From Bordetella genomosp. 10 (GTDB lineage Bacteria; Pseudomonadota; Gammaproteobacteria; Burkholderiales; Burkholderiaceae_B), in the NCBI RefSeq assembly GCF_002261225.1, contig NZ_NEVM01000005.1, positions 1,798,001-1,862,000 of the forward strand: 64,000 bases of DNA, read 5' to 3'. Position numbers and translations under genes: made by a program. The notes beneath the pieces were generated by a model, which ran no database searches, was not told the DNA's origin, and worked only from the letters and a program-made list of their open reading frames with translations. Of the stretch, positions 1,003 to 64,000 are shown one piece after another (the stretch's first letter is position 1; the number at the start of each line of letters is the position of its first letter).

Positions 1003-1020
1003 TGGCTTGATGACGTGACC

Positions 1021-1077
1021 AAGCGCCTTGGCGTCCTCATTCGTCTTGGCGCTTTTCCGCGGGCACGGCCCCGTGCC
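1021..1077. terminator. Possible bidirectional terminator hairpins between convergent genes
   Basis: Two inverted repeats fill the convergent gap. The first is AAGCGCC (1021-1027) with GGCGCTT (1048-1054), followed by four T. The second is GGCACGG-CC-CCGTGCC (1062-1077). The position fits termination of both converging transcripts, but the T run is short, so this is a weak call. Confidence 0.35.
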
Positions 1078-1098
1078 ATGCCCGCCACCGCGTCCTGC

Positions 1099-18257: not shown

Positions 18258-19904
18258 CTAGGTTTTCCGCACCGCTGGGCGCGTAGCGGACGTCTGCCTC
18301 GCCCGTTGCTCCGACCACACGCTGTCCGCCGGGCCATGTTTCACGCGCCGTGCCGTGGCCCGCGCTATCCAGGCGAAGCACCAAGCGCCGATGAAGGCCA
18401 CCACGTCCACGCCTATGGTCGCGGCGCTTCCATGCGCCCATATACCCAGCGAAGGGAGCAGCAGCGCACCCAGCGTGGTCAGCGGGATCGCCACCGTCGC
18501 GGCCGCGCATAGCCACAGCAATTCCACCGACGCCTGAGCAGCACCGCGCGCGAACGCCCAGCCGATGCAGGCGAAGAACACCGCGTAGTAGACGACTTCG
18601 TGCCAGCGGTTGAGATCACCCACATGCCCGTGCAGCCACTTGGCCGCCACGATGGTGGCCGATAGCCCGGCTACGCAGCCCAGGCACACGCCTACGGTGC
18701 CGGCGGCAAGCCAGTAGGTGTCGCGGCGTTGCTGCGGCGTTTCACCATCCTTGCGCGCCCGCTTGCGGCGCGTTTCCACCCATAGCAGGTTGCCGCTATA
18801 GAACAGCCAAGCTCCCGCGAGGCCGAGGAAAAAATAGGCCCACTTGATCGTTGTGCCGCCATATTGGCCGAAGTGCAGGCCATCTATCACCATATCGATT
18901 CGCCACCACGGCTCCTGCCGTGAAGGACTGAAATCGCCGAGCATGTCGCCGCTCACGGCGCTGAGGGTGACGCTTGTGAGAAAAGTGTCCCCTACGTAGC
19001 CAGGCTCGGCGCCCGAAAATTTGACGGCCGCAGATATGTCGCCGGTATTGTAAAAGGTCATCGCATCGGGGGCGTATCCCGGCGCCTGCGCTTGCAGGCG
19101 CTTCAGCAATTGCGCGGGCGGCAGCATGGGGGCCATCTCACCCGTGGGCTTGGGCGGCCTCGTCGGCGCCCAGAATTTCTGGATCACGGACCACTGTTTG
19201 CCACCGTAGATCACGCTGTCCTGCGCCGACCAGAGCACTGCGCCGAATCCGAACGACGTGGCGGTGACGGCCATGACGATGTGGAATGGCAGGCTCGTGA
19301 TGCCGACGATGGTATGCGCATCCTGCCACATGCGCTTGAGGTTCTTGCCCACGCGCAGCGCGAAGAAATCCGCCACCAGCGTCGGCAACAGCATGATCAC
19401 GCCGGCGATCAGCGCCACCCCGTAGAGCAACGAGACCATGCCCATGAAATACGACCCCCATGGATCCGGAATCCCGACCTGCCTGTGAACCTCATCGACG
19501 AACTCGGCCAATTCGGACGGCTCCTCCTGCTTCGTCAGCAGCGTGCCGTCGGACTTGAGCGTCCCCCACCAGTGGACATGCCCATGCGGCTGGCCGGGCG
19601 CGTGCGGCGTATCTTCCACCCAGGTCACCCGTGCAGGCTCGTTCTCGTGACCGCGCAGATGCAGGGTGATGCCTTCCTCCCGTGCCTCGGGGTGCTCGGC
19701 CGCCACCCGCTCGATGAGTTCGGCTGAATCGTCCAGCGGCACGGCCGCCGCGCCCACGGCGGGCGGCGAGGCCCAGCGTGCGATCGGCTCCCGGAACATG
19801 GTCAGCGCGCCGGCATAGAAGGCAATGAACAGCGCAAAGCCACAGGTGATGCCCGTCCAGGTGTGGACGGTCTTGTAGATGCGGAGGATGTCAGAACGGA
19901 TCAT
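18258..19904 (-). CDS. PepSY-associated membrane protein of an iron/siderophore operon
   Basis: 548 residues from the ATG at 19904; a further upstream TTG is less likely. The architecture is PepSY_TM: helix 1 at about 13-35 (WTGITCGFALFIAFYAG), a large periplasmic PepSY region, then helices near 155-175, 200-225 and 340-360, and a C-terminal bundle of about four more helices. Conserved His residues (for example TVHTWTG and DAHTIVG) resemble heme or ferric-reductase ligands. These proteins commonly accompany TonB-dependent siderophore receptors and are thought to reduce ferric siderophore at the inner membrane. It is the last gene of the fecI-fecR-receptor series. Confidence 0.8.
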   Translation of the reverse strand: MIRSDILRIYKTVHTWTGITCGFALFIAFYAGALTMFREPIARWASPPAVGAAAVPLDDSAELIERVAAEHPEAREEGITLHLRGHENEPARVTWVEDTPHAPGQPHGHVHWWGTLKSDGTLLTKQEEPSELAEFVDEVHRQVGIPDPWGSYFMGMVSLLYGVALIAGVIMLLPTLVADFFALRVGKNLKRMWQDAHTIVGITSLPFHIVMAVTATSFGFGAVLWSAQDSVIYGGKQWSVIQKFWAPTRPPKPTGEMAPMLPPAQLLKRLQAQAPGYAPDAMTFYNTGDISAAVKFSGAEPGYVGDTFLTSVTLSAVSGDMLGDFSPSRQEPWWRIDMVIDGLHFGQYGGTTIKWAYFFLGLAGAWLFYSGNLLWVETRRKRARKDGETPQQRRDTYWLAAGTVGVCLGCVAGLSATIVAAKWLHGHVGDLNRWHEVVYYAVFFACIGWAFARGAAQASVELLWLCAAATVAIPLTTLGALLLPSLGIWAHGSAATIGVDVVAFIGAWCFAWIARATARRVKHGPADSVWSEQRARQTSATRPAVRKT

Positions 19905-19914
19905 GCGGCGCCCC

Positions 19915-20211
19915 TTATGCAAAGAACCAGAAGCGGCAGGCGAACAGCGCCGCGAAGCTGACCAGGTTCGCCACGCCTAACCAAAGCCAAGCCGTCGAGC
20001 CGCTGCGGAACAGGAAGCACAGGCCGAACACGAGAATCCAGATAAACGCCACCATATGCCGCAACAGGCCGTAATGGCCGGCCGGCGTGGCCGCGGGATT
20101 GCCTATCGCCAAATAGACGAACAGACCGGCCAACGAGAGCCCTAGGCCGAAACCCAGGATAGCGCCGGCGCTGGTCTTGGCCCACCAGTCGGGGCGGATC
20201 TTTGCAGCCAT
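19915..20211 (-). CDS. Small inner-membrane protein of the iron operon (DUF3649-like)
   Basis: 98 residues from the ATG at 20211, chosen because AAGGAGG stands seven bases before it. It starts one base after the stop of the preceding gene (TGACATG), so translation is coupled. Three hydrophobic helices are predicted (about 12-32, 46-66 and 74-97). The size and place between receptor and PepSY gene match the small membrane proteins (DUF3649/DUF3325) of betaproteobacterial siderophore operons. Family assignment is from memory and function is unknown. Confidence 0.65.
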   Translation of the reverse strand: MAAKIRPDWWAKTSAGAILGFGLGLSLAGLFVYLAIGNPAATPAGHYGLLRHMVAFIWILVFGLCFLFRSGSTAWLWLGVANLVSFAALFACRFWFFA

Positions 20212-20212
20212 G

Positions 20213-20506
20213 TCAGGACCTCCTTGCGCGGCGCAGCGCGACGGCATAGGGAAAGGCGAACAGGCAGACCATTGCTACATGCAGCATCACGAACAGGCCG
20301 GACAGCGGCCGCAAGGCCGCGACCCATGAAGCAAGTCCCGCCGCCAGCAGCAGACAGGCGGCCGCCAGCAAGAGACGATTGGACGATTCGCGTTCAAACC
20401 ATTTCTGATTCGGGCTGGCAAGGTAGAGGCAGGCGCAGCCCAGGATAGTGAACGCCAAGGCGGAAAGGACAAGCATGGTTCGGGTCGACTCCTTGCTCTC
20501 GGACAC
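20213..20506 (-). CDS. Small inner-membrane protein of the iron operon (DUF3325-like)
   Basis: 97 residues from a GTG at 20506. An ATG at 20476 is an alternative, since AAGGAG lies 12 bases before it and none precedes the GTG. Three hydrophobic helices are seen (about 12-30, 45-63 and 67-88), followed by an Arg-rich tail. The LALxLASPNQKW pattern after helix 1 resembles DUF3325. It lies 45 bases after the receptor gene and is coupled to the next small membrane gene, so it belongs to the siderophore-uptake operon. Confidence 0.65.
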   Translation of the reverse strand: MSESKESTRTMLVLSALAFTILGCACLYLASPNQKWFERESSNRLLLAAACLLLAAGLASWVAALRPLSGLFVMLHVAMVCLFAFPYAVALRRARRS

Positions 20507-20551
20507 AATGGCGGCCAGCGCTTGCCAGCCAAGCGCTGACGCACGATTCGA

Positions 20552-22960
20552 TCAAAAATCGATGGAGGCTGACAGCCAGAAGGTGCGTGGTGCGCCGACG
20601 ATGGCGCCGCCGTTGGCGTAGACGCCCCAGTAGTGCTTGTCGAAAACGTTGTTCACGTTGGCACGGAACACGACATCCTTGCCGCCCAGCTTGGTTGCAT
20701 AACGCGCACCCAAGTCCAGCACCGTCCACGGCGGCAGCTTGACCGAGTTGGCGTTGTCCAGATATTGCGCACTGGTGTAGATCACCCGGCTATTCAGCGC
20801 CAGGCCCGACACCCCGGGCACGTCCCAATCCAGGCCCAGGTTGGCGGACCAAGGCGGGGAGCCGGGCGCCTGGTTGCCGTCGTACAGGCCATCCTGCGTT
20901 TTGGTCAATCGACCTTGTAAATAGGTCACCCCACCCAGCACACGCAGGCCGGTCGTCAGCTCGCCGAAGATTGCCCATTCGATGCCGCGGTTGCGCTGCT
21001 CGCCGTCCAGGCGCAGCGTGGGCAGCGGCGAAGTGCTGTTGTCAGTTGTCGTGCTGGGCTGTTTGATCTGGAACACGCTCAGCGTGTTGGTGAAGCTTCC
21101 CGTTTGCAGCTTGGCTCCCACCTCGACCTGCTTGGTCTTGTAGGGTGGAAAGACCTCGCCGGCATTCTGGTAAGTACTGCCAACCGTCGTGCCTTGCGAC
21201 AAGCCCTGGATGACGTTGGCGTAGAGCGACAGATCGTCGGCCGGCTTGACCACCAGGCCGGCCATCGGTGTCCAGGCGCTGGCGTCGTAGCGCGATGTCA
21301 CTGCGCCGCTGTTGGCATCGAAATTGTCGACCTTCACGTGCTGTCGGCGCTCGCCCAGCGTCAGCAGCACGCGGTCGTCGATGAAGCCCAGCGTGTCGGC
21401 CAAGGCCACCCCACTGAGCGTGTTCTCCGACGCCTTCGGAATGTCGGTCGGCGAGACGGGCCAGGAGAGGATGGGCGCCGGCGCATAGATGTTGGTCGAT
21501 TGGGTGGCGCCGGTTGCTCTGGCCACCCAGCTATCCCGGTTCATATACGACGCGCTCAAAGACACTGAATGGCTGACCGGGCCGGTCTGGAATCGGCCGC
21601 GTAAACCCGTCTCGGCGCTTTGTGTCCTGGTCTTGGTAGGCCAGGCATAGGCATACACGTCGGCATCGCCATTGGCTTGCAGATTAGAAATCCATCCTGG
21701 CATGACTCCCTTCATCGTGCCATGCTGCATGCCAAACTTGGCGTAGCCGGTCCAGCGGTCGTTGAAGTCGTATTCGCCGCCAAGGATCGCCGCTTCCGTC
21801 GTCTCCGTGCTTCCGGGGCTACCCGGAAGGATGTCCGTCCGGCCGCTGGGCGCGGCGGGCATCGAAGTCATCCCGTTGCCGACCCAGACCAAGGGGGGCG
21901 AAGCACCGTGCATTCTCTGCTGCACGCGATAGGCGTCCAGCGTCAGGCGCAGTTGCTCACCCCGGTAGTCCAACGCCAGCGCGCCGGTGCTGCCCTCTTT
22001 CTTCTGATCGTGGATATAGCCCTCACCGTTGCTGTAGCTGCCGTTGAAGCGCAGGCCCCATTCGCCGTTGGCGCCGAAGCGGCGGCCCATGTCCACATGG
22101 CCTTTCCACAGCGAATCCGACCCGACACCCAGCGTGAGGCGCGTCAGCGGGTCATCGCCCGCTCGCTTGGGGACGATATTCACGGAACCGCCCACCACGC
22201 CATAGGGCGACATACCATACAGCAGTGCGCTCGGGCCTTTCAGCACTTCCACCCTTTCCGCGAAGTCCGTCGGAAGATCGCCCCAATATGGCGTCATTCC
22301 ATACAGCCCGTCGAACGTCGCATCCCGGGTGGCGACCGAGAAACCCCGAATCTTGATGGCCGATGAGCTGACAGCGCCGCCCGGCAACGATTCACGAATT
22401 GAGGGCTCGTTGCGCAACACATCGAGCACCGAACCAGCCTGCTGGTCCTCCATCAACTGCGAAGTGTAGTTTGTGATGTTGAAGGGCGCCTCCATCACGT
22501 CCACATTGCCCAGCATGCCCAGCCGCCCGCGGCGCGCGACCTGCCCGCCCGCGTAAGTCTCGGGCGGCGTGGTATTGCCGGTCACCGTCACGAGCGGCAG
22601 CGTCGCCATGTCGCCACCGGTAGACGGAGCAGCCTTGATGACGACGGCAGCCCCCTCCCGCGCGGCGATCAATCCACTGCCGGCCAGCAGCCGGTCCAGC
22701 GCTTGGCCCGGCGTCAATGTGCCCGACACGGCCGGGGCGGTTTTGCCGGCCACCAGGGCGGGCTGCACGATCAGTTGCACGCCAGTTTGCAGCGCCCAGT
22801 TGCTCAGCGCCTGGCTTAGCGGCTGCGCAGCAAGGTTGAAAACTGCCGGTTCGCCCGGCAGGCCGGCGGCCATGCCCTGGGCATGGGCAGAGACGGCGGC
22901 AATGCCCAAAGCGACGGCAAGCGCAAGCGGCACCGGGTGGCGCAGCGAGGAAAAGGGCAT
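20552..22960 (-). CDS. TonB-dependent siderophore receptor with signalling (STN) domain
   Basis: 802 residues from the ATG at 22960, preceded by TGGAGA. A signal peptide is followed by an STN domain (about 40-105; LAAQPLSQALSNWALQTGVQLIV), which contacts FecR, then a TonB-box-like LPLVTVTG, a plug (about 145-270) and a 22-strand barrel ending in WLSASIDF with the terminal Phe of outer-membrane barrels. The STN domain marks it as a transducer-type receptor that reports substrate binding to FecR/FecI. The ligand is likely a ferric siderophore; which one cannot be read. Confidence 0.92.
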   Translation of the reverse strand: MPFSSLRHPVPLALAVALGIAAVSAHAQGMAAGLPGEPAVFNLAAQPLSQALSNWALQTGVQLIVQPALVAGKTAPAVSGTLTPGQALDRLLAGSGLIAAREGAAVVIKAAPSTGGDMATLPLVTVTGNTTPPETYAGGQVARRGRLGMLGNVDVMEAPFNITNYTSQLMEDQQAGSVLDVLRNEPSIRESLPGGAVSSSAIKIRGFSVATRDATFDGLYGMTPYWGDLPTDFAERVEVLKGPSALLYGMSPYGVVGGSVNIVPKRAGDDPLTRLTLGVGSDSLWKGHVDMGRRFGANGEWGLRFNGSYSNGEGYIHDQKKEGSTGALALDYRGEQLRLTLDAYRVQQRMHGASPPLVWVGNGMTSMPAAPSGRTDILPGSPGSTETTEAAILGGEYDFNDRWTGYAKFGMQHGTMKGVMPGWISNLQANGDADVYAYAWPTKTRTQSAETGLRGRFQTGPVSHSVSLSASYMNRDSWVARATGATQSTNIYAPAPILSWPVSPTDIPKASENTLSGVALADTLGFIDDRVLLTLGERRQHVKVDNFDANSGAVTSRYDASAWTPMAGLVVKPADDLSLYANVIQGLSQGTTVGSTYQNAGEVFPPYKTKQVEVGAKLQTGSFTNTLSVFQIKQPSTTTDNSTSPLPTLRLDGEQRNRGIEWAIFGELTTGLRVLGGVTYLQGRLTKTQDGLYDGNQAPGSPPWSANLGLDWDVPGVSGLALNSRVIYTSAQYLDNANSVKLPPWTVLDLGARYATKLGGKDVVFRANVNNVFDKHYWGVYANGGAIVGAPRTFWLSASIDF

Positions 22961-22994
22961 GGGTTTCTCCAGATCCAGAAACAAAAACGAATGA

Positions 22995-23008
22995 TTCTTA
23001 TTTAAGAA
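22995..23008. promoter_or_regulatory. Palindrome upstream of the receptor gene
   Basis: TTCTTA-TT-TAAGAA, a perfect 14-base inverted repeat 35 bases before the receptor ATG. It overlaps a weak Fur-box-like stretch that I score at about 11 of 19 positions. It may be part of the FecI-dependent promoter region or a weak Fur site. Confidence 0.35.
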
Positions 23009-23143
23009 GACGAACCATCCGCTGGATACCCTAGCCCCTATATGTCACAATTTATTTCCGATCTTGATAGGTTGACGTTTCCCGGCAATTTCATAAAAAA
23101 GCGCCGTGCTGCGAGTGCCCTGCCTTGCCCGGCGCCGCGGACG

Positions 23144-24265
23144 CTATCGCGCCAGCACAACTTCTACCGCGCCGCCGCCAGCCACTTTCAACTGTACCGG
23201 CAGCGAGGCGGGCAGCACGCGCCGGAAGGTGGCCATGTCAAGCGGGTCGAAGACGCCGGTGATGGGCAGGGCGGCGACGGCGGGGTCGCGGATAAGCAGT
23301 TGCGGGTCGCCGTAGCGGGCGAGTTCGGCCAGCGCATAGTCCAGCCGCTGGTTGTCGAACCGCACGCGATGGTCGCGCCAGGGAGCGATGCCGCCCGCGT
23401 CGACGACAGACACGGCGGAGAGTACGCCCGCCTCGTCGCTCGACACTTGCTGCCCCGCCGACAGGATGATGGCTTGCCCTCCGCCACCGACCGGCGATGC
23501 ACCCGTGGGCGCGTCGATGCGCTCCACTCGCACGGCGCCTTTCTCCACGGCGACGTGGACGCCCCCGCCGCCGGGAATCTGCGGCGTGTGCCGGACGGAA
23601 AAGCGAGTGCCGACGACAGTGATACGCATGGGACCGGCCAGTACGTGGAAAGGCCGCCCGGCATCGCTCTGGACGGCGAACACCGCCTGGCCGTCGAGCA
23701 GCTCCACCTCACGGCGCTGGCGGTAGTAGGCAACCTCCAGCCGCGTGTCGGTGTCGAGCCGCAGGCGGGTGCCGTCGGACAGCGAGACTTCTGACTGCTG
23801 GCCGCGCCGAGTGTGGAAGGATTGGCTGTACAGGGGCCGGGCCTGCCAGTAGTTCCAAACGAGCAGACCCGAGCCGCCGGTAACGGTGGCCACGCCGGCA
23901 ACGGCCAGCCCTGACGCCAGGATGCGGCGGCGCAAAGGCATGGGCTGCTGCACGGGCCGCTGTCGGTCAGGGGCCACGGCCTGCGGATCGGCCTGCCCGG
24001 CGCCGGTATCGGCATCCAGGGCCTGGTCATGTGCCAGATTGCGCTGCAACAGGCTACGCATGTCCGGTGCAATGTCGTCGAACGCTTGCCATTCGCGCTG
24101 CCAGTGGTCGAAGGCTTGCCGATGCGCCGGATCGGCGAGGAGCCAGGTCTGGAAGGCGCGCTCCCCCTCCGCACCGAAGTTCTCGTTGCGGCGCCGGACG
24201 AACCAGTCCAGCGCTTCCTCGCGTGCGCGGGAATCGTCGGCTGGCAAGATGGGATGGGTGCTCAT
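23144..24265 (-). CDS. fecR: FecR-family anti-sigma regulator
   Basis: 373 residues. The cytoplasmic N-terminal domain (about 10-85) contains the family pattern EEALDWFVRRRNE and FQTWLLADPAHRQAFDHWQ, which binds the sigma factor. One membrane helix (about 105-128) follows. The periplasmic FecR domain contains GQQSEVSLSDGTRLRLDTDTRL and VELLDGQAVFAV. It relays the receptor signal to the FecI-type sigma factor encoded 57 bases upstream. The gene lies between sigma factor and receptor, the usual order. Confidence 0.9.
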   Translation of the reverse strand: MSTHPILPADDSRAREEALDWFVRRRNENFGAEGERAFQTWLLADPAHRQAFDHWQREWQAFDDIAPDMRSLLQRNLAHDQALDADTGAGQADPQAVAPDRQRPVQQPMPLRRRILASGLAVAGVATVTGGSGLLVWNYWQARPLYSQSFHTRRGQQSEVSLSDGTRLRLDTDTRLEVAYYRQRREVELLDGQAVFAVQSDAGRPFHVLAGPMRITVVGTRFSVRHTPQIPGGGGVHVAVEKGAVRVERIDAPTGASPVGGGGQAIILSAGQQVSSDEAGVLSAVSVVDAGGIAPWRDHRVRFDNQRLDYALAELARYGDPQLLIRDPAVAALPITGVFDPLDMATFRRVLPASLPVQLKVAGGGAVEVVLAR

Positions 24266-54308: not shown

Positions 54309-54325
54309 TTCGCAACAGTTGCGAA
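54309..54325. promoter_or_regulatory. IclR operator 1 (TTCGCA-N5-TGCGAA)
   Basis: TTCGCAACAGTTGCGAA is a perfect 17-base palindrome 41 bases before the IclR start. The core TTCGCA-N5-TGCGAA recurs at 54437. Confidence 0.75.
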
Positions 54326-54436
54326 AAAACGTCATATCCAATTCTAGCAGTGTGCTCGGCAGGTCCTGGCGTCCTTGGCAGCCTCGGTGGAATCCCTTAC
54401 TTGCCAAGCAACAGGCACAATGCAAAACTTTATTTA

Positions 54437-54453
54437 TTCGCATTGATTGCGAA
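54437..54453. promoter_or_regulatory. IclR operator 2 (TTCGCA-N5-TGCGAA)
   Basis: TTCGCATTGATTGCGAA has the same half-sites and the same spacing as operator 1, and its arms extend two further pairs (TA/TA). It ends 27 bases before the CobW start, placing it in the promoter/leader of the operon. Confidence 0.75.
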
Positions 54454-54480
54454 TATCGTATTTTTTGCAGGAAATTGGCC

Positions 54481-55575
54481 GTGGACACCGCATCGTCTTC
54501 CGAACCTCGAATTCCAGTAACGCTTCTGACCGGCTTCTTGGGCAGCGGCAAGACCACTTTGCTCAATCATTGGCTGCGGGATCCCGCCCTGGCAGATGCC
54601 GCCGTCATCGTCAACGAGTTCGGTGAGATCGGCATCGACCACGCGCTGATTGCGAGCAGCAACGACCATACGATCGAATTGAGCACGGGCTGCCTGTGCT
54701 GCACCGTGCAGGGCGATTTGGTGGAGACGCTGCGCGAACTGCGTAGCAAGCGCAGCAATGGCAGCATTCCCGCGTTCAACCGGATCTTGATCGAGACCAC
54801 GGGCATGGCCGACGTTGTTCCGGTAATCCAGGCCCTGATGACGTTTCCGGTTGCCTGTTCGTTTCGCCTCAATCGCGTCCTGACCGTGGTGGATGCGGTC
54901 AACGGACTTGCCACCTTGGCAGCGCATCCGGAAGCCGTGAAACAGGTAGCCGTCGCCGACGCATTGCTCGTCACCAAGACCGACCTGCCCGGCGCACAGG
55001 GCGCGATCCTGGAAGACACGCTCGCGCGCATCAATCCAGCCGCGGCGCGCATTGCCAGCGGATCGCCTGCTCGCCCGGATGCCGCCGTGCTGGACGGACC
55101 GGACGTCTACGACGCAGCCGCAAGACCGGAACTGGCCCGGCAATGGCTCAATGCCGCGATGTACGCAACCTCGCATGACGAAGAAGGGACGGGTGATGCC
55201 GAGCATGGCTATGGCTTCGGCCATCGTCCCGCGTATTCCCATGGCCATGCCCGTATCGAAAGCTTCTGCTTGAGCTTCGACCAGCCATTCGAATGGCTGC
55301 AGGTCAGCGCCTGGCTGGATGCCCTGGTCATGGCGCATCCGGATGAGCTGCTTCGCGTCAAGGGGATTCTCCATGTCGCCGGCCATCAACGGCCAATCGT
55401 CGTGCAAGCAGTCCAGCGTCTGTTCCATCCGCCAGCGGAACTACCCGCAGGAACTGACGTGGACCGGAGATCCCAGATTGTCTTCATCACAAATGGCTTG
55501 AGCAGGGACTACGTCCTGCAGGTGTGGAACACGGTGCGCGAGCGCGCCAGCCTGCCTGCCGCGCGAACCGCTTGA
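54481..55575 (+). CDS. CobW/COG0523-type G3E GTPase (metal chaperone family)
   Basis: 364 residues from the GTG at 54481, preceded by AGGAAA; this gives the family's usual short lead into Walker A GFLGSGKTTLL (18-28). The metal-binding CxCC motif GCLCCTV is at 70-76, Glu/Asp switch regions LIETTGMAD and LTVVDAVNG follow, and the specificity motif VTKTDL (NKxD-like) lies further on. A His-rich linker (HGYGFGHRPAYSHGH, about 240-255) precedes the CobW C-terminal domain. The family delivers Zn, Co or Fe to enzymes. Co-transcription with a metal-dependent hydrolase, 35 bases downstream, suggests it loads that enzyme. Confidence 0.88.
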   Translation: MDTASSSEPRIPVTLLTGFLGSGKTTLLNHWLRDPALADAAVIVNEFGEIGIDHALIASSNDHTIELSTGCLCCTVQGDLVETLRELRSKRSNGSIPAFNRILIETTGMADVVPVIQALMTFPVACSFRLNRVLTVVDAVNGLATLAAHPEAVKQVAVADALLVTKTDLPGAQGAILEDTLARINPAAARIASGSPARPDAAVLDGPDVYDAAARPELARQWLNAAMYATSHDEEGTGDAEHGYGFGHRPAYSHGHARIESFCLSFDQPFEWLQVSAWLDALVMAHPDELLRVKGILHVAGHQRPIVVQAVQRLFHPPAELPAGTDVDRRSQIVFITNGLSRDYVLQVWNTVRERASLPAARTA

Positions 55576-55610
55576 TTATTTCGTCAACGCCCAAAAAAGG
55601 GAACAACAGC

Positions 55611-56990
55611 ATGGATACGCTAATCAAGAACGGGCTTGTCATCACGCCGAAAGGCCGCCAGCGCGTCGCGATCGGAATTCAGGACGGCAAGATCGCCGGC
55701 CTGTACGAAGAAGGCACGGAACCGGAAGCGAAACAGATCATCGATGCGGCGGGTCTTTTGGTGCTGCCTGGCGCCATCGACATGCACTCGCACCACCGCC
55801 AGGGTTCGCAGAAGGGCTTCGAGTACAAGGACACTATTTATACGGCTACGCAACAATGCGCGGCGGGCGGCGTCACTACCAGCGTGGGCATGCCGAATGT
55901 CAATCCGCCGCCGAACTCGCTCGACCTGCTCGAAAAGCAGTTTGACATCTATCGCAGCGACGCCGTCGTGGATTGGAACTTCAACCCGGCGCCGACGATC
56001 GACTCGGAAATGCAGGCCATGAGCGCCACGGGCATCGCCGCGTTCAAGATATTCATGGTGGTGGATACCGGGCGCGATTACCCGCACATGCCCGGGATCG
56101 GCGTGCACGACCACGGCAAGCTTCTGCGCATCATGCAACGCTGCGCAGAACTGGATGTTCCGCTAATGGTGCATCCTCACGACCAGGCCCTGATGGACGT
56201 TATCGAACAAACCTTCTGGGATCGCGGTGAACGGGATGCGCTTGCCTATGCGCGCGCATACGCCGCACATGATGGCGTCATTTGGGAAACGGCCATCGCG
56301 ACCTTGCTGCGCCTACAGAAAGCCGCCGGCTGCCACCTGCATATCCTGCACACCCAGACCGCTGGAAGCGTGCAGTTGATTCGAGAGGCCAAGGCAGCAG
56401 GACAAAAGGTCACCTGCGAAATCAATCCGTGGGCCTTGTTCCTTGGCTGCGAATGGTCGGCGATCCAGCGCCTGGGCTCGTATGCGCTGTCGTACTGGGT
56501 ACCGGAGAAGAACGTACCCGGATTATGGGAAGGGCTTAACGACGGCACGATCGATATCGTTGCCACCGATCATGCGCCCCACACGCGCGAGGAGAAGGAA
56601 GTCGGCTGGACCGATGGCTGGAAAGCGCATACCGGCACGCCGTCGACGCAGTTCTACCTGAGCATGTTCCTGACGGCGGCGCAAGAAGGCAAGATCAGTC
56701 TGGAGCGGGTAGCGCAGGCTTGCTCGGCCAAGCCGGCCGAACTTTTCCGGCTCCGCGACAAGGGGGAGATCCGTGCCGGATATGACGCCGACCTGGTGCT
56801 GGTCGATCTGGAAACCGAATACGAAGTGCGCGACGAAGACGTGCTCAGCCTGGTGGGTTGGAGTCCCTACGCCGGCCGACGCCTCAAAGGAAAGCCGGTG
56901 CGCACCCTCGTGCGCGGCGCGACCGTATACGCAGACGGCAAGGTAACCGGCGCCAAGGGCGGCGGCCGGATGGCAAGCGCCGTCCGGTGA
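55611..56990 (+). CDS. Dihydropyrimidinase/allantoinase-like cyclic amidohydrolase
   Basis: 459 residues from the ATG at 55611. The beta-domain start MDTLIKNGLVITPKGRQRV and barrel motifs are typical of D-hydantoinase, dihydroorotase and allantoinase. The first metal motif is DMHSHHRQGSQ (His59 and His61), Lys146 in AAFKIFMVVD is placed for carbamylation, and VHPHDQAL, HILHTQTA and ATDHAPHTREEK provide the remaining ligands. It should open a cyclic amide such as a hydantoin, allantoin or dihydropyrimidine. The metal may be supplied by the CobW-type protein encoded just upstream; a Bug binding protein follows. Confidence 0.88.
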   Translation: MDTLIKNGLVITPKGRQRVAIGIQDGKIAGLYEEGTEPEAKQIIDAAGLLVLPGAIDMHSHHRQGSQKGFEYKDTIYTATQQCAAGGVTTSVGMPNVNPPPNSLDLLEKQFDIYRSDAVVDWNFNPAPTIDSEMQAMSATGIAAFKIFMVVDTGRDYPHMPGIGVHDHGKLLRIMQRCAELDVPLMVHPHDQALMDVIEQTFWDRGERDALAYARAYAAHDGVIWETAIATLLRLQKAAGCHLHILHTQTAGSVQLIREAKAAGQKVTCEINPWALFLGCEWSAIQRLGSYALSYWVPEKNVPGLWEGLNDGTIDIVATDHAPHTREEKEVGWTDGWKAHTGTPSTQFYLSMFLTAAQEGKISLERVAQACSAKPAELFRLRDKGEIRAGYDADLVLVDLETEYEVRDEDVLSLVGWSPYAGRRLKGKPVRTLVRGATVYADGKVTGAKGGGRMASAVR

Positions 56991-57030
56991 CGCACAAATA
57001 GCGAAATATCAACAATACAAGGGGAATACC

Positions 57031-57996
57031 ATGAACCGTCGTCATTTCTCGCGGCTACTCGCCGCATCGCCGCTCTTGATGTGTCCCATCGCGCGCAGCC
57101 AGGAAGGGAGTGTCACCACGCTCATCGTGCCTTACCCTCCCGGAGGCAATACCGATTATGTCGCACGCATCGCCTCGGATTCCTTACGCCGCACACTGGG
57201 TTTATCGGTAGTGGTCAAGAACCAGGCCGGCGCCGGCGGCACGATTGCCACCGAGTCGCTGATCCGCTCGCGTAACGATGGCAGCACGCTGATGATCGCT
57301 TCAATAGGCCAGGTCTCGCTGGTGCGGTTCCTGTTCAACGTGCGTTACGATCCCTTGAAAGACCTGGTGCCCGTGGCCAATATCGCAGGCAACCCGCTGG
57401 TCCTCACGGTGCCTTCACGCTCGCGCTTTCAAAATCTCGCGCAACTCATCGAATATGGCCGGGCAAATCCCGGCGCGTTGACGGTCGCGCACGGCGGCGA
57501 GGGCTCCATGTCCCATATGTCGGTGTCGGTATTTCTCAAACGCGCCGGCATAGAGGCCGCCCTGATTGGTTATCGAGGCGGCGCGCCTGCCCTGCTCGAC
57601 ACCATGGGTGGGACCGCCGATCTCTATTCAGCCAACATCTCTGAAATCCTGCCATACAAGGAGAGTGGCCGTATCCGATTTCTCGGGGTATCGAGCGCGA
57701 AACCGGTCCCTCAGCTACCCGGCATACCCGTCATCGCCGACACGATCACCGGCTACCAAATCGAAACATGGAACGGCTTGTTTGCGCCGGCTGGCACGCC
57801 AACGGAGGTAATCGACCGCCTCGCCGACGCGGTACAAGCGATGCTGCGCGACCCTGGCGTACTCAGTAAATTCGAAGCCTCCGGCAGCGATCCCCGTGTC
57901 GGCGAAGTCAAGGAGAAGTTCGCGCATCGTATCCGTGAAGACATTGCACTATGGACGCCGTTGGTCCAACTGATCGGTGTCAAACCGGCGAACTGA
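57031..57996 (+). CDS. Bug/TctC-family periplasmic solute-binding protein
   Basis: 321 residues. A Tat-like or Sec signal (MNRRHFSRLLAASPLLMCPIARSQ) is followed by LIVPYPPGGNTDYVAR, VVVKNQAGAGGTIATES, GSTLMIASIG, VAHGGEGSMSHM and LIGYRGGAPALLD. The twin Arg in MNRRHF is of interest, as most family members use plain Sec signals. Third gene of the operon with the CobW-type GTPase and the cyclic amidohydrolase, so it probably binds a cyclic amide or its product. Confidence 0.88.
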   Translation: MNRRHFSRLLAASPLLMCPIARSQEGSVTTLIVPYPPGGNTDYVARIASDSLRRTLGLSVVVKNQAGAGGTIATESLIRSRNDGSTLMIASIGQVSLVRFLFNVRYDPLKDLVPVANIAGNPLVLTVPSRSRFQNLAQLIEYGRANPGALTVAHGGEGSMSHMSVSVFLKRAGIEAALIGYRGGAPALLDTMGGTADLYSANISEILPYKESGRIRFLGVSSAKPVPQLPGIPVIADTITGYQIETWNGLFAPAGTPTEVIDRLADAVQAMLRDPGVLSKFEASGSDPRVGEVKEKFAHRIREDIALWTPLVQLIGVKPAN

Positions 57997-58022: not shown

Positions 58023-58934
58023 TCATTTAACCGAATACCGGGCCGGCAAGGCCCGCACGAACCGATCGCATTCCTGGCACGCAAGCTCCGCGATGGCACG
58101 GATCTTCCCCACTTCGTTCGCGGCGCTGTAGCTGACCATCAGGGGTTGGGACGGCAAGGCGATGCCGCAATCGATCACTTGCACCTGGCCGCTTTCTATG
58201 GCCGGCCGCACGGCGGCCAGGGGCAGCAATGCGCATCCGAAGCCCGCGGCGACCAGTTGGAGAATCGCGGCGATGGAGCTGACGCGGTGTATCTTGACGG
58301 GCGCGAGGCCGACGCGGCGGTAGAGTTCGCCGAGGACGTGATCGGGATGCGAACCGCGCCCCATGGTAATGACGGGGGCGCTCAAAATGCGCTCGAGCGC
58401 ATTTTTCGGATCGGCCGATGTCCCCGGCTGGCAGATCCAGCCCAGCGCGATCGGCAGGCAGGCGATGCTGGTCGAGCCCTCGCCATCGACGGTATGGGCA
58501 TGCAGCGCGATGTCCAGGCAGCCTTCCTTGACCATTCTTTGTACGCTTGCCGTGCTCTCCGAGGTCAACTGGATCGTTATCCCGGGATAGGTCGTCTGCA
58601 GGCTTTTCAGGAAATCGATCAGCCAGGTGTGGATGACGCTGTCGACGGCGCCGATGCGCACGAGTCCGGTGACATCATCGCTCACGCTGCCCAGCCGCTG
58701 GATCTTCTTCTCCAGCGCGAGCATCTGCTCCCCATATTCGAGCAGACGGATGCCGGCGGCCGTCAGGCGGAGATCCCGCGCGTCCCGTTCGATGAGTTTG
58801 GCGCCGACCTCTTCCTCGAGCGAGGCGATCCGGCTGGAAATCGCCGCCTGCGTCAGATGCAGGGAATCGGCGGCCGCCCGGAAGCTCTTCAAGCGGGCGA
58901 TCTGCAGGAAGGCCTCGATAAAACGCGTATTCAT
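58023..58934 (-). CDS. LysR-family transcriptional regulator
   Basis: 303 residues. Helix-turn-helix at about 3-60 (FIEAFLQIARLKSFRAAADSLHLTQAAISSRIASLEEEVGAKLIERDARDLRLT) and effector domain from about 90. It lies behind the pxp/acc operon on the same strand with a 109-base gap, and converges on the Bug gene at 57031. It may regulate the operon in front of it. Confidence 0.87.
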   Translation of the reverse strand: MNTRFIEAFLQIARLKSFRAAADSLHLTQAAISSRIASLEEEVGAKLIERDARDLRLTAAGIRLLEYGEQMLALEKKIQRLGSVSDDVTGLVRIGAVDSVIHTWLIDFLKSLQTTYPGITIQLTSESTASVQRMVKEGCLDIALHAHTVDGEGSTSIACLPIALGWICQPGTSADPKNALERILSAPVITMGRGSHPDHVLGELYRRVGLAPVKIHRVSSIAAILQLVAAGFGCALLPLAAVRPAIESGQVQVIDCGIALPSQPLMVSYSAANEVGKIRAIAELACQECDRFVRALPARYSVK

Positions 58935-59043: not shown

Positions 59044-59457
59044 CTACGAAGGACCCGCCGGATCGAACGCGAAGAGCTTTTCGCCGTACCCCACCAATGT
59101 TCCGGGCTCGACGAGCACTGGGCCCAATACGCCGTCTTCGGGCGAATAGACCGCATGTAGTTTATCGTCCACGGCGACGAACGCAACGAGCTGCCCCCGT
59201 TCTACCGCGCTCCCGGCGGAAACCAGTGGGTCCGCGTCGAGCGGATGCCGCGTCAGGAACAGGCCGACCCTGGTCGCCACGATGGCGGACGTCTTTGCCG
59301 GCGGGATCGCGGCCGGCGCCGATGCGTGCCCGCCGGCGCCGCTGGACGACGGCCCGAAACGCAGCAAGATGTGCGTGCCATGGCCCGTGTATTCGAAGGT
59401 GCCGACGCCCGCGCCTGCCAGACGCTGAACGATGGCCTCCAGCGCTCGATCCTTCAT
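59044..59457 (-). CDS. Degenerate biotinyl/lipoyl-domain protein (second BCCP-like)
   Basis: 137 residues. The C-terminal 75 residues align with a biotin carrier domain ([18 protein letters not shown], then [24 protein letters not shown]), but at the biotin site the EAMKM motif is replaced by VDDKLHA. A lysine (Lys99) is present without the flanking Met, so biotinylation is doubtful. Its start overlaps the accC stop by four bases (ATGA), so it is made with the carboxylase. It may be a scaffold or a regulator; this is inference. Confidence 0.75.
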
Positions 59458-60848
59458 GCCGCGCCCCGCTGGCCTGTCGTCGCGGGCCGCGCTTGCCCCG
59501 CGAGCGCGCCGGTGGCCAGGAGGTGTTCCAGATGATGAATGTTGCAGCCTCCCTTCATGAATGCCGGATCCCGGAGCAAGCTTTTATGGAGATCCACGGT
59601 CGAGTCGATGCCTTCGATGACGACCTCGTCCAATGCGCCCAGCATGCGCGCGATGGCCTCCTCCCGCGTCGCCGCATGGGTCATCAGTTTCGCCACCAGC
59701 GAGTCATAGTGCGGCGGCACTTTATAGCCGCCGAATAAATGGGAGTCGACACGAACGCCCGGGCCGCCCGGCGCGAGCCAGCTTGTCACCGTGCCCGAAC
59801 TTGGCGCGAACGTCCAGGGATGTTCGGCATTGATCCGGCATTCGATGGCGTGCCCCGCAAGGGTCACGTCGGACTGCCTGATCGAAAGGGGTTGCCCTTG
59901 CGCGATGCGGAGTTGTTCGACGACCAGATCGACATCGGCGTTGAGTTCGGATATTCCGTGCTCGACCTGGATGCGCGTATTCATTTCGATGAAGAAAAAC
60001 TCCCCCTCTTCGTAGAGGAATTCGAACGTCCCGGCGCCGCGATACCCGATATGCCGGCATGCCTCGACGCAACGCTCGCCGATTTTCGAGATCGCCGCGC
60101 GCGCGATCCCGGGCGCCGGGGACTCTTCGATCACCTTCTGGTGCCGGCGCTGCATGGAGCAATCCCGCTCCCCCAGCCAGATGGCCTCGCCTTGTCCGTC
60201 GGCGAGAATCTGTATTTCGATGTGGCGGGGATTTTCGAGGAAACGCTCGATGTACAGGGCAGGATTGCCGAAAGCGCGCTGCGCTTCCTCCCGGGTGGTC
60301 GCGACCGCCGCGTCCAGTTCGGCCGGCCGCCGCACGATGCGCATGCCGCGCCCGCCGCCGCCGCCGGCCGCCTTCACGATCAAGGGATAACCGACTTCCC
60401 CGGCGATTCGTCGTACTGCCTCGGGATCGGCGGGCAGCGCGCCCTCGGAACCGGGAACGCAAGGAACGCCGGCCTGGAGCATCGCCCTTTTCGCATTGAC
60501 CTTGTCCCCCATCAATTCGATGGTCTCGGCGCGGGGGCCGACAAACACCAGCCCCGCCCGCTCGACCGCCGCCGCGAAGCCGGCGTTTTCCGACAGGAAA
60601 CCATATCCGGGATGGATGGCGCCGGCGCCCGCCAACCTGGCAGCCGTCAGGATCTCGCCCTGGTTCAGATAACTCTGCGTCGCCGGTGCGGGGCCGATGC
60701 AAAGCGCTTCGTCGGCAAGCGCGACGTGCCGCGAGTCCTTATCGGCTTCGGAGTAGATCGCCAATGTCTTCAGCCCCAAGGCGCGGCATGCGCGCAGCAC
60801 GCGCAGCGCGATTTCGCCGCGATTGGCAATCAGCACCTTGTCAAACAT
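59454..60848 (-). CDS. accC: Biotin carboxylase (AccC-type)
   Basis: 464 residues, the usual length. ATP-grasp landmarks are [34 protein letters not shown], the Gly-rich loop [34 protein letters not shown] and [16 protein letters not shown]. It carboxylates biotin on a carrier using ATP and bicarbonate. Its start overlaps the accB stop. Since it belongs to the pxp operon and not to accA or accD, it is unlikely to be the housekeeping acetyl-CoA carboxylase subunit. Confidence 0.92.
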
Positions 60849-61302
60849 CGGACGCTCCGATGGTCTCGATCTCCAGCAGCACCGTGCCGCTGTCGACCGC
60901 TTGGCCGTTCTCCACCCGAATGGCCGCTACCCGGCCGGCCCGGTCGGCCTCCACGGCATTCAGCGTCTTCATCGCTTCAATAATGCCGACCTGCTGCCCT
61001 TCTTCGATGACATCGCCCACGTTCACGAACGGCGGCGCCCCCGGCGCCGGCGCGACATGGAAAATGCCCGCCATGCCCGAAACGATCGTTGCCAGGGCGT
61101 TTCCTGCGCGCGGAGAATTTGCCGCCGCCGGCAGCGCCCCGACAGCCTGGGCCGGCTGCGGAACGGACGCCGGCGTCTCGGCATGGCTCGACCCCGCCGA
61201 CTTCACCAAACGGAAAGATTCCCCGTTCGATGAATATTGGATCTCGACCAGCGACGTCGACTCCAATACCCGGACGAGCCGTTCAAGGGTTTCGGTATTC
61301 AT
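60841..61302 (-). CDS. accB: Biotin carboxyl carrier protein (AccB-type)
   Basis: 153 residues. An N-terminal helical region ([22 protein letters not shown]) is followed by an Ala/Pro-rich linker (about 36-70) and the biotinyl domain with the intact site EAMKTLNAV; the biotinylated residue is Lys112. The thumb-like insertion [13 protein letters not shown] is present, as in AccB proteins. It starts eight bases behind pxpA and overlaps accC by eight bases. Confidence 0.9.
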
Positions 61303-61310
61303 CGCGGCGT

Positions 61311-62084
61311 TCAGTGGGTAAAAGGCCGGATCGCGACGCCGTTCGATTCGAGCGCCTTCCTGACGAAACGGGCAAAATCGACCGCGCCCGGCGTATCGCT
61401 GTGCACGCAGATCGTATCGAACGATGCCGGCAGGAATTTCCCGGAAACCGTCTCGATCCCGCCTTGCTTCACCATCCTGAGCATCCGGTCGGCCGCCTGC
61501 TGCGCGTCGTGCAGGACGGCGCCGGGCTCCTTGCGATTCACGAGGTGGCCTTCCTCCGTATAAGCCCGGTCGACGAAAACCTCGGACTTCGTGGTCAGGC
61601 CAAGTTCCTGCGCGATGGGGATCATGATTCCATTCGCGAAGGTGACACAGACCAGGCTGGGGTCGACGGCCTTGATGGCCTTGGCAATGGCCGTCGCAAC
61701 GCCGTGGTCGGTTTGCGTCAGGTTCCCGAGCGCGCCGTGCGCCTTGACGTAGGTAATAGGATTGTTCGCGTAGGTCGAAAGCGCCATCGCCGCGCCGATC
61801 TGGTAGGCGACGAGACGTTCGATCTCGCCGTGGCTGAAGGGAATGATGCGGCGGCCGAATCCCCAAAGGTCCGGGAAACCCGGATGCGCGCCGACCGCCA
61901 CGCCCCGCTTGCCCGCCTCCGCGAAGATGTTCGCCATTATTTCGGGATCGCCGGCATGCATGCCGCATGCGACGTTGGCCGAACTGACGACGTCCAGGAT
62001 CGCGATATCGTCGCCGCGCGTCCAGGAGCCGTAGCCTTCGCCCATATCCGAATTCAGGTCTATGGTGTTTCCAGAGTTGCTCAT
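61311..62084 (-). CDS. pxpA: LamB/YcsF-family 5-oxoprolinase subunit A
   Basis: 257 residues from the ATG at 62084 (GGAG in front). Landmarks are IDLNSDMGEGYGSWTRGDD, SSANVACGMHAGDPEIM, VGAHPGFPDLWGFGRR, YVKAHGALGN, VFVDRAYTEEGHLVNRKEPGAVL and ICVHSDTPGA. PxpA joins PxpB and PxpC in the ATP-dependent opening of 5-oxoproline to glutamate in many bacteria. The gene sits between pxpC and accB in one operon. Confidence 0.9.
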   Translation of the reverse strand: MSNSGNTIDLNSDMGEGYGSWTRGDDIAILDVVSSANVACGMHAGDPEIMANIFAEAGKRGVAVGAHPGFPDLWGFGRRIIPFSHGEIERLVAYQIGAAMALSTYANNPITYVKAHGALGNLTQTDHGVATAIAKAIKAVDPSLVCVTFANGIMIPIAQELGLTTKSEVFVDRAYTEEGHLVNRKEPGAVLHDAQQAADRMLRMVKQGGIETVSGKFLPASFDTICVHSDTPGAVDFARFVRKALESNGVAIRPFTH

Positions 62085-62155
62085 GATCGAATGCTCCGAA
62101 GGTTGAGTCTGGGTCACGGCCGCAAAGCCGGCCGCGGGTCTTGCCGGTTTTCCTG

Positions 62156-63085
62156 CTAACGACGCAGCGCCTCCAGCGCCGCATCTATCGTGGTCAACGT
62201 GAAACGCACCGCGCAGCCGACCGGCGCCTGGGCGAGACGCCACAAGTCCGCCTGGATCACGGCCGCGATTTTCGGGTAGCCGCCGCAGGTATTCGCCTCC
62301 GCCATCTGTACGATCGGCTGCCCGTTCGGCGGCACCTGGACCGTTCCGGGAATGATGCCGTGCGAGAACAATTCCAGAGGATGCGCCAATTTCAGCGGTT
62401 CGCCCATCAGTCGATACCCGACACGATTCGCTTCGCTCGATATCCGGTACGAACCCTCGCGAAAATGGGCCAGGGACTCGCCGGTGAAGCAGTCGTATTC
62501 CGTTGCGGGGATGATCCTCACCCGCACGACGCCCTGCTTCAGGTCATCCAGGAAGGACACCCGTTCCGCGGGCGCGATGCCGGGATGTTCCGACAGCGCC
62601 AGCCCCGCCGATACACCCAGCGTCAGTACGTCGCCGCGCCGCAGCCCTCGCCCCTCGTAACCGCCGAAGCCCGCCTTGAGGTCGGTCGAGCGCGATCCCA
62701 ATATCTCCTGCACGTCTATCCCGCCCGAAAACGCGATATACGCACGGCAGCCCAGCCTGGGGGCCTCGATGACCAGAACCTGGCCCGGCGCGGCCCGCAC
62801 GCGGGTCCACGTCGGCACGGCCGCGCCATCGAGAGTCACGCGGCTTTGCGCGCCGGTGCAGGCGAACCAGATATCGTCTTGGACCCGCAGGCGTTGCGGA
62901 AAAACATTGATTTCGAGGGCAGCCGCGTTCGCTTCGTTGCCCACCAGTTCGTTTGCCATGACAAGCGCCGGTTCGTCCATGGCGCCGCCACGGCTCACGC
63001 CGGCACCGAGGAATCCGATGCGCCCCCGGTCCTGGACCAAATTCAACGCGCCGGACGAAAGCACTTCGATCGTTGCTTTGGCCAT
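62156..63085 (-). CDS. pxpC: Biotin-dependent carboxyltransferase-type 5-oxoprolinase subunit C (KipA-like)
   Basis: 309 residues. The N-terminal landmark is LNLVQDRGRIGFLGAGVSRGGAMDEPALVMANELVGN, then CRAYIAFSGGIDVQEILGSRST, and near the end a NGQPIVQMAEANTCGGYPKIA motif that belongs to the AHS2 domain also found in the carboxyltransferase of urea carboxylase. Starts three bases after pxpB. It forms the CT-like heterodimer with PxpB. Confidence 0.92.
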   Translation of the reverse strand: MAKATIEVLSSGALNLVQDRGRIGFLGAGVSRGGAMDEPALVMANELVGNEANAAALEINVFPQRLRVQDDIWFACTGAQSRVTLDGAAVPTWTRVRAAPGQVLVIEAPRLGCRAYIAFSGGIDVQEILGSRSTDLKAGFGGYEGRGLRRGDVLTLGVSAGLALSEHPGIAPAERVSFLDDLKQGVVRVRIIPATEYDCFTGESLAHFREGSYRISSEANRVGYRLMGEPLKLAHPLELFSHGIIPGTVQVPPNGQPIVQMAEANTCGGYPKIAAVIQADLWRLAQAPVGCAVRFTLTTIDAALEALRR

Positions 63086-63088
63086 GCC

Positions 63089-63796
63089 TCAGGAAGCCCT
63101 TACGAACCTGACGGTGTCGCCCGGCGCGAGCAGGCACGGCGGCCCGGCATGGGGATCGAAGAGTTCGGCTTCGGTCATTCCGACGAGGTGCCATCCGGAT
63201 GGCGCATCGCAAGGCTGTATGCCCGCCTGGACGCCCCCGACGATCACCGATCCCTTCGGAATCCTTACCCGCGGCTGCGTTCTCCGGGGTATTGCCAACG
63301 GCGCCGGCAATCCGCCGAGGTAAGCGAATCCCGGCATGGCGCCTATGCAGGCGACGGTATAGATGGCATTACTGTGCATCTCGACCCATTGGTCGACGCT
63401 CATACCCGCATGCGCCGCCAGGTCGGGCAGGTCTTCACCGGATTTCCCGCCATAGACGACCGGAAACACGTGCTCCCGTCCGCCTTCCCGCACACCTTGC
63501 GTTTCCGGCCAGGTTTTCAACACCAGATCCCGGACGGCTTCCGGATGCAGCGCCATGGGATCGAACAGGACGAGCAGGTTATTCACGCCCAGGACGAGTT
63601 CCGTTATTCCTTGGTCGCGGAAGGCCGATAGCGCCGCGCCCAGCGCCTGCAACCTGCGCTGGATCCGCATATCGAAGCACTCGCTACGCGGATCGAACAA
63701 CAGGCCGCCCAGCCCGAGATGGCTCAACACAGGTTCAGGCGACCGGGTGGACGACAATGCCGTCTCCAGGTCGTCGCGGATTGCGTCCAAGCTCAT
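63089..63796 (-). CDS. pxpB: 5-oxoprolinase subunit B (KipI-like, AHS1 domain)
   Basis: 235 residues. AHS1 landmarks are FPVVYGGKSGEDLPDLAAHAGMSVDQWVEMHSNAIYTVACIGAMPGFAYLGGL and AIPRRTQPRVRIPKGSVIVGGVQAGIQPCDAPSGWHLVG. This is the other half of the carboxyltransferase-type module. The first 50 residues are less typical. It follows the aminotransferase gene by 33 bases, so the operon probably starts beyond the window edge. Confidence 0.9.
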   Translation of the reverse strand: MSLDAIRDDLETALSSTRSPEPVLSHLGLGGLLFDPRSECFDMRIQRRLQALGAALSAFRDQGITELVLGVNNLLVLFDPMALHPEAVRDLVLKTWPETQGVREGGREHVFPVVYGGKSGEDLPDLAAHAGMSVDQWVEMHSNAIYTVACIGAMPGFAYLGGLPAPLAIPRRTQPRVRIPKGSVIVGGVQAGIQPCDAPSGWHLVGMTEAELFDPHAGPPCLLAPGDTVRFVRAS

Positions 63797-63829
63797 TTGC
63801 CCGAATCCCTCGTCCCATGCATTCGAGCG

Positions 63830-64000
63830 TTATTGCAAGGCGGCGCACGCCGCGCGAATGCGCAGGCAGCCCTCGGCGATGTCCTTGTCGGAGCTGGCGA
63901 AGGAAATCCGCAGGTAGGGCGACAGGCCATAAGCCGCGCCGCACACCGTCGCGACCCCGAAATCCTCGAGCAGGTACTCGGCCAGTTCGACGTCCGACTC
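63830..64000 (-). CDS. Aminotransferase, C-terminal fragment (cut by window end)
   Basis: The last 56 residues of a reading frame entering from the window edge. They contain FGVATVCGAAYGLSPYLRIS followed by FASSDKDIAEGCLRIRAA, the typical close of class I/II aspartate-aminotransferase-type enzymes (the Arg in the LRIS region binds the substrate carboxylate). It is upstream of pxpB on the same strand, so it may act on the amino acid released by ring opening. Confidence 0.75.
   Translation of the reverse strand, partial: ESDVELAEYLLEDFGVATVCGAAYGLSPYLRISFASSDKDIAEGCLRIRAACAALQ

Follow-up and report, generated by a model that had tools for sequence, protein, structure and literature searches.

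Why a stretch of bacterial DNA encodes a 5-oxoprolinase-like protein set (PxpB, PxpC and PxpA) together with its own biotin carboxylase (BC) and two biotin carrier-like proteins is the question raised by an operon in Bordetella genomosp. 10. It lies in a region of 64,000 nucleotides (nt) (contig NZ_NEVM01000005.1, positions 1,798,001–1,862,000), hereafter the window. From our analyses, we consider it moderately probable that these six genes encode a multi-subunit enzyme that uses carboxybiotin to open a lactam, i.e. a cyclic amide. Open reading frames and Pfam and NCBIfam matches located every component named in the first-pass annotation of this DNA on the minus strand, including a degenerate carrier and an aminotransferase at the operon start. 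The order is the end of the aminotransferase gene, pxpB, pxpC, pxpA, accB, accC and the second carrier gene, with a LysR-type gene after it. The gaps measure 33 nt (aminotransferase/pxpB), 3 nt (pxpB/pxpC), 71 nt (pxpC/pxpA) and 8 nt (pxpA/accB), and accB overlaps accC by 8 nt and accC overlaps the second carrier gene by 4 nt. Comparable loci with accC and both carrier genes within 9 kb of pxpC are termed type I here, a label that does not require PxpA, and loci lacking a linked BC are termed BC-less, of which some may be false owing to contig ends.

The two carboxyltransferase (CT) proteins of the operon are related to solved 5-oxoprolinase subunits. PxpB (63089–63796, minus strand; subdomains C/D) matches Pfam CT_C_D with 2.1e-58, passes the 5-oxoprolinase PxpB model TIGR00370 (173.7 versus a cut-off of 145.55) and has Escherichia coli YbgJ as its best solved relative (5dud_B, 7.6e-43). 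PxpC (62156–63085, minus strand; subdomains A/B; CT_A_B 4.2e-88), the best solved relative of which is E. coli YbgK, passes the broad model TIGR00724 and does not reach the equivalog PxpC_5OPro (NF045499; 298.1 versus 500 bits). It carries the type-I residues Q260 and N265, where most BC-less PxpC proteins have L and Q. The ring-opening subunit of the LamB/YcsF type, PxpA (61311–62084, minus strand), passes two PxpA subfamily models of NCBIfam (NF003814 with 343.3 bits versus 226) and none of its PxpA equivalog models. It is identical at 36 of the 37 residues that are at least 95% conserved in BC-less PxpA, with G229 replaced by S, and the comparison with BC-less PxpA revealed no type-I-specific residues.

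The biotin-related proteins resemble subunits of acetyl-CoA carboxylase (ACC). AccB (60841–61302, minus strand) has the biotin site EAMKT with Lys112, matches Biotin_lipoyl with 1.7e-16 and E. coli AccB (4hr7_B) with 1.7e-18, the Pfam and structure queries including two additional upstream codons, and falls barely below the NCBIfam model for the ACC biotin carboxyl carrier protein (BCCP; 112.3 versus 115.2). AccC (59454–60848, minus strand) contains the three BC domains of Pfam and passes TIGR00514 (675 versus 626.5). Residues K116, K159, K238, E276, E288, N290, R292 and R338 (E. coli numbering) are in place as judged from motif positions, and we take them to be catalytic, with the role that they have in E. 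coli AccC. The protein is also identical at 155 of the 173 positions invariant among the accC rows taken as housekeeping. That AccC passes an ACC model and AccB nearly does would suit an explanation in which accB and accC are spare ACC subunits that share the operon by accident. Against this, Pfam and NCBIfam scans recognised no other carboxyltransferase, and in particular none of the AccA/AccD type, in the operon. Together with the conserved linkage and the second accC copies described below, this renders accidental sharing very improbable. Scans of 20 other frames of the window did not reveal an AccA/AccD-type partner either.

The second carrier (59044–59457, minus strand) is an AccB-like pseudo-carrier that matches Biotin_lipoyl with 1.7e-6 (28.2 versus a cut-off of 22.1), and its biotin site reads VDDKLHA. 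When 170 carriers were aligned, the column of AccB Lys112 is occupied by Asp98 of the second carrier and not by Lys99, so that Lys99, put forward in the first-pass annotation as its biotin-site residue, had to be rejected. The lysine is absent in 85 of the 170 carriers. In 83 of 85 loci, a single carrier with the lysine is encoded beside a single one without it, the exceptions being L071, which is cut, and L085, which has an extra lysine carrier; this supports the role of a subunit that the first-pass annotation gave to the degenerate carrier, which is regularly present as the second one. The lysine carrier itself is kept in 84 of the 85 loci, and the remaining locus is cut by a contig end. 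Since the AccB fold is predicted to be kept in the second carrier, we infer that it is a non-biotinylated docking subunit, which probably joins AccC to PxpBC. Second carriers diverge fast, with a median identity of 28% to their counterparts, and in line with this, searches with the second carrier alone were unproductive: a genome scan gave 468 pattern matches with no relative among them, and a protein search gave two uninformative matches.

The arrangement is not confined to the window. Contigs representing one genome per species were scanned with an alignment of PxpC proteins, and the best 80 loci were kept, which, being drawn by similarity, form a set biased towards the type of the window. 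Its 81 PxpC entries comprised 63 scored as type I and one more (L047) changed by hand from type III to type I, ten with both carriers and no accC, five with neither, and two (L071 and L080) of type I that were either cut or not caught by the motif rule. Among the type-I entries from all sources (n = 75), the six genes occur exactly once each in 67, in 11 different orders or orientations. They are found in alpha-, beta- and gammaproteobacteria, in families including Rhizobiaceae, Burkholderiaceae, Phyllobacteriaceae, Pseudomonadaceae, Comamonadaceae and Acetobacteraceae. The linkage of accB and accC with pxpBCA, from which the earlier reading had started, is thus recurrent and the arrangement widespread. 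We reject the possibility of a unique local oddity, since the set recurs across many loci, and that of chance adjacency, since it persists through reshuffled gene orders. The linkage of the six genes is probably selected, and its persistence through 11 arrangements also argues against spare ACC subunits.

A draw of 200 Pseudomonadota genomes gave a broader view. CT_A_B was detected in 66 of them, with 94 matches: 33 in long frames that have the size of fused urea carboxylases, a fragment (G019, left out) and 60 stand-alone PxpC loci. A BC was absent from the vicinity of 43 of the 60 and present near 17, of which four were of type I (two carriers), five of type II (one short carrier) and eight of type III (AccC and BCCP sharing a frame). 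The centre genome of the comparison (G001) was part of this draw, with one type-I and one BC-less locus; when it is omitted, 16 of 58 loci are BC-linked. Type-II loci (L111, L112, L116, L119 and L103) consist of one short carrier, accC, pxpB, pxpC and pxpA, and in L114, one of the five type-II loci of the draw, a contig end leaves only part of accC. In type-III loci (L127, L133, L134, L136, L137, L138, L145 and L151), PxpB and PxpC are often fused too, and PxpA lies beside them. Two loci, L068 and L081, contain two PxpB–PxpC pairs each, one of which has the same orientation as accC and the carrier genes.

Phylogenetic analyses were used to trace the descent of the two enzymatic parts. In a PxpC tree of 118 rows (the type-I sample, the 60-locus draw and 20 of the 33 fused urea carboxylases), the urea carboxylases form one clade (100/100) that adjoins type II (94/91) and excludes the window. 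The type-III rows form a clade of their own (100/100), and those of type I fall inside a single one of 42 rows (97/67), so that the BC-linked architecture follows the PxpC tree. The AccC tree, calculated without bootstrap, included 26 type-I AccC proteins, a random sample from which some short or missing sequences were omitted. Here, the type-I AccC group (support 83) has the presumed housekeeping accC rows as its neighbours and is set apart from the BC of urea carboxylase (100). The 16 rows called housekeeping are second-best accC matches, and one of them, L090, falls in the type-I AccC group. From the groupings in both trees, it appears that in type I, subunits of the ACC type were joined to PxpBC independently. 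The position of type-I AccC with ACC-type AccC would also be expected for spare ACC subunits; a second accC outside the type-I AccC group, assumed to be the housekeeping copy, is however present in all 13 examined genomes with a cluster accC.

Ten loci encode both carriers and PxpABC with no local accC (L016, L019–L022, L026, L036, L066, L067 and L074). In seven of these ten genomes, the best AccC match is only 54–55% identical to AccC of the window, and the BC of these seven is therefore presumably shared with fatty acid synthesis; one of the seven, G015, also has a type-II accC. The remaining three (G215, G219 and G014) have a closer accC elsewhere, which in G014 sits in a second type-I cluster (L101).

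How might these proteins work together? In urea carboxylase, the modules homologous to PxpB and PxpC carboxylate a urea nitrogen, and by analogy we infer that PxpB–PxpC is a carboxyltransferase served by the AccBC of its own cluster. AccC would carboxylate the biotin on AccB using ATP and bicarbonate, PxpB–PxpC would transfer the carboxyl group from carboxybiotin to the lactam, and hydrolysis of the ring thus activated would fall to PxpA, with release of the carboxyl group as CO2. An association of PxpBC with a biotin carboxylase, suggested from the gene linkage in the first-pass annotation, has a physical precedent: judging by its title and chain names, structure 9yx5 shows a PxpBC pair bound to a biotin-dependent carboxylase complex.

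Several observations weigh against the carboxybiotin-dependent mechanism. PxpBC usually lives without a linked BC, as the 43 BC-less loci of the 200-genome draw demonstrate, and the group nearest to type I in the PxpC tree consists of BC-less loci (L105–L109). Six rows scored as BC-less (L017, L024, L027, L054, L069 and L126) even lie inside the type-I clade; some of them are near contig ends, and L024 and L027 have pxpA beside pxpBC with neither accC nor carriers in the stretch examined. A search for PxpC residues common to all four BC-linked groups yet seldom seen in BC-less proteins gave none. Moreover, canonical PxpBC is assumed to phosphorylate 5-oxoproline with ATP in the accessible part of one report (PMC13274462), so that PxpBC may do without carboxybiotin. 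The closeness of type I to BC-less PxpC, the BC-less rows in its clade and the lack of a residue signature, together with the scores of PxpB and PxpA against 5-oxoprolinase models, speak for an alternative in which PxpABC is a canonical ATP-dependent 5-oxoprolinase with direct phosphorylation by PxpBC, and AccB, AccC and the pseudo-carrier merely regulate or scaffold it. We regard this as unlikely, though the strongest of the alternatives, considering the near-invariable presence of the lysine carrier, the BC residues kept in AccC of the window, the three architectures besides urea carboxylase that join BC to PxpBC, and the physical complex of 9yx5.

Information on the substrate comes mainly from neighbouring genes. 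The aminotransferase of the window (63830–64000, minus strand) is represented by the C-terminal end of a pyridoxal phosphate-dependent enzyme, an open frame to a TAA stop that runs past the window edge; full-length aspartate-transaminase-like genes adjoin two type-I loci. Within 7 kb, an aminotransferase gene was present in 38 of the 78 type-I entries and 2 of the 44 BC-less ones, related loci being counted separately; the corresponding figures are none of four for type II and one of seven for type III. Either an aminotransferase or an RraA-like gene is near in 43 of 78 type-I and 6 of 44 BC-less entries. Nine type-I and four BC-less truncated entries were dropped from these counts, the window was kept despite its cut upstream side, and Fisher tests on the counts ignore shared ancestry. 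The earlier suggestion that an aminotransferase belongs to the system gains support from these numbers. One of three tested RraA-like neighbours passes the model for 4-carboxy-4-hydroxy-2-oxoadipate aldolase (PRK09262; 214.7 versus 179), and two fail. Four loci (L002, positions 1–3009, L006, L007 and L009) have three consecutive RraA-like genes ahead of the aminotransferase gene; of the two tested in L002, neither reaches the aldolase cut-off. A DUF4286-annotated gene adjoins the cluster in Burkholderia-like and Pseudomonas loci (L002:3276–3917 and L001:3250–3897).

The frequent proximity of aminotransferase and RraA-like genes, the one aldolase match and the difference of type I from most PxpC at Q260 and N265 weakly suggest an oxoproline-like lactam with a substituent as the substrate and not 5-oxoproline itself, since the product of the latter, glutamate, needs no such steps. 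Opening of the lactam might then yield an amino acid resembling glutamate, and the aminotransferase could convert this to a 2-oxo acid, perhaps destined for an aldolase of the RraA/4-carboxy-4-hydroxy-2-oxoadipate type. A different possibility is that, in the manner of urea carboxylase, the enzyme acts on an amide or ureide with an open chain, and that PxpA hydrolyses what this carboxylation yields instead of a lactam. PxpC is homologous to the CT of urea carboxylase, and two of five annotated type-I loci include genes for amino-acid ABC transporters as well as one named NAC, in agreement with such a substrate. However, PxpC groups with BC-less PxpC and not with urea carboxylase, and PxpA keeps all but one of the listed family residues, and we consider an open-chain substrate improbable. 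A ureide, named beside a lactam in the first-pass annotation, finds nothing in its favour over the lactam.

A more far-reaching reading is possible but tentative: there would be a widespread, unrecognised family of biotin-dependent lactam carboxylase-hydrolases, every enzyme of which needs one live and one dead carrier. The dead one would be an obligatory subunit docking the cluster's own or a housekeeping BC onto PxpBC, and hydroxylated oxoproline-type lactams would feed a transaminase-aldolase pathway. If the carboxybiotin-dependent mechanism holds true, it would represent a new way of working for the 5-oxoprolinase-type family, with lactam activation by carboxylation and not by phosphorylation alone. 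The CT modules of urea carboxylase and 5-oxoprolinase would then have been paired with biotin carboxylases in several separate ways, and biotin enzymes could include a dead carrier protein as a conserved component. Some genes annotated as 'acetyl-CoA carboxylase' or '5-oxoprolinase' would probably have another role. The mechanism is testable with six proteins.

The LysR-type regulator directly downstream of the cluster (58023–58934, minus strand) matches LysR_substrate (8.3e-31) and HTH_1 (2.7e-19). Beyond it, positions 54319–57996 on the plus strand encode a CobW-type GTPase, a dihydroorotase/allantoinase-like amidohydrolase and a TctC receptor, possibly another cyclic-amide pathway. A PepSY membrane protein, a TonB-dependent receptor and a FecR-domain protein, a set of the iron-uptake type, are encoded at 18258–24265 on the minus strand.

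Among the matches listed in the open-access literature, we found no paper on a BC-linked Pxp enzyme, which does not establish its absence from print. In the accessible portions of three papers, adjacent CT-like gene pairs are noted as then unstudied (Lombard and Moreira, PMC3199775), BC, BCCP, PxpB and PxpC of Lp. pentosus are listed as separate items (PMC12427679), and urea carboxylase and PxpA of Clostridium ljungdahlii have nearby locus numbers (PMC10458427).

The operon shares with the PxpABC 5-oxoprolinases (E. coli YbgJKL, those of B. subtilis and pxpTABC of C. glutamicum) the homologous PxpA, PxpB and PxpC, encoded together. It differs from them in the presence of AccC, AccB and the pseudo-carrier, in a PxpC that remains under the equivalog cut-off with Q260/N265 instead of L/Q, and in the aminotransferase and RraA-like genes often found near type-I loci. 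The LamA/LamB system for 2-pyrrolidinone utilisation in Aspergillus nidulans combines a fused urea-amidolyase-like protein with a PxpA-family protein and acts on a lactam; we know of no pseudo-carrier in that system. Structure 9yx5 from M. smegmatis, by its title and chain names, contains the PxpBC pair MSMEG_0435–MSMEG_0436 bound to the long-chain acyl-CoA carboxylase complex, together with a biotin carboxylase/carrier subunit (AccA3) that belongs to an acyl-CoA carboxylase, unlike the subunits encoded here; neither PxpA nor the pseudo-carrier had 9yx5 among its structure matches. The same BC, CT and BCCP modules are joined in one chain in urea carboxylase (TIGR02712; K. lactis 3va7 and 5i8i) and are separate chains in the operon, where PxpC and AccC score 162.9 and 477.2 bits against TIGR02712 and remain below its cut-off of 1303.85 bits. 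AccC and PxpC of the window also fall outside the BC and PxpC-tree clades of urea carboxylase, and PxpA and a lysine-less carrier are added to the modules that the two systems have in common.

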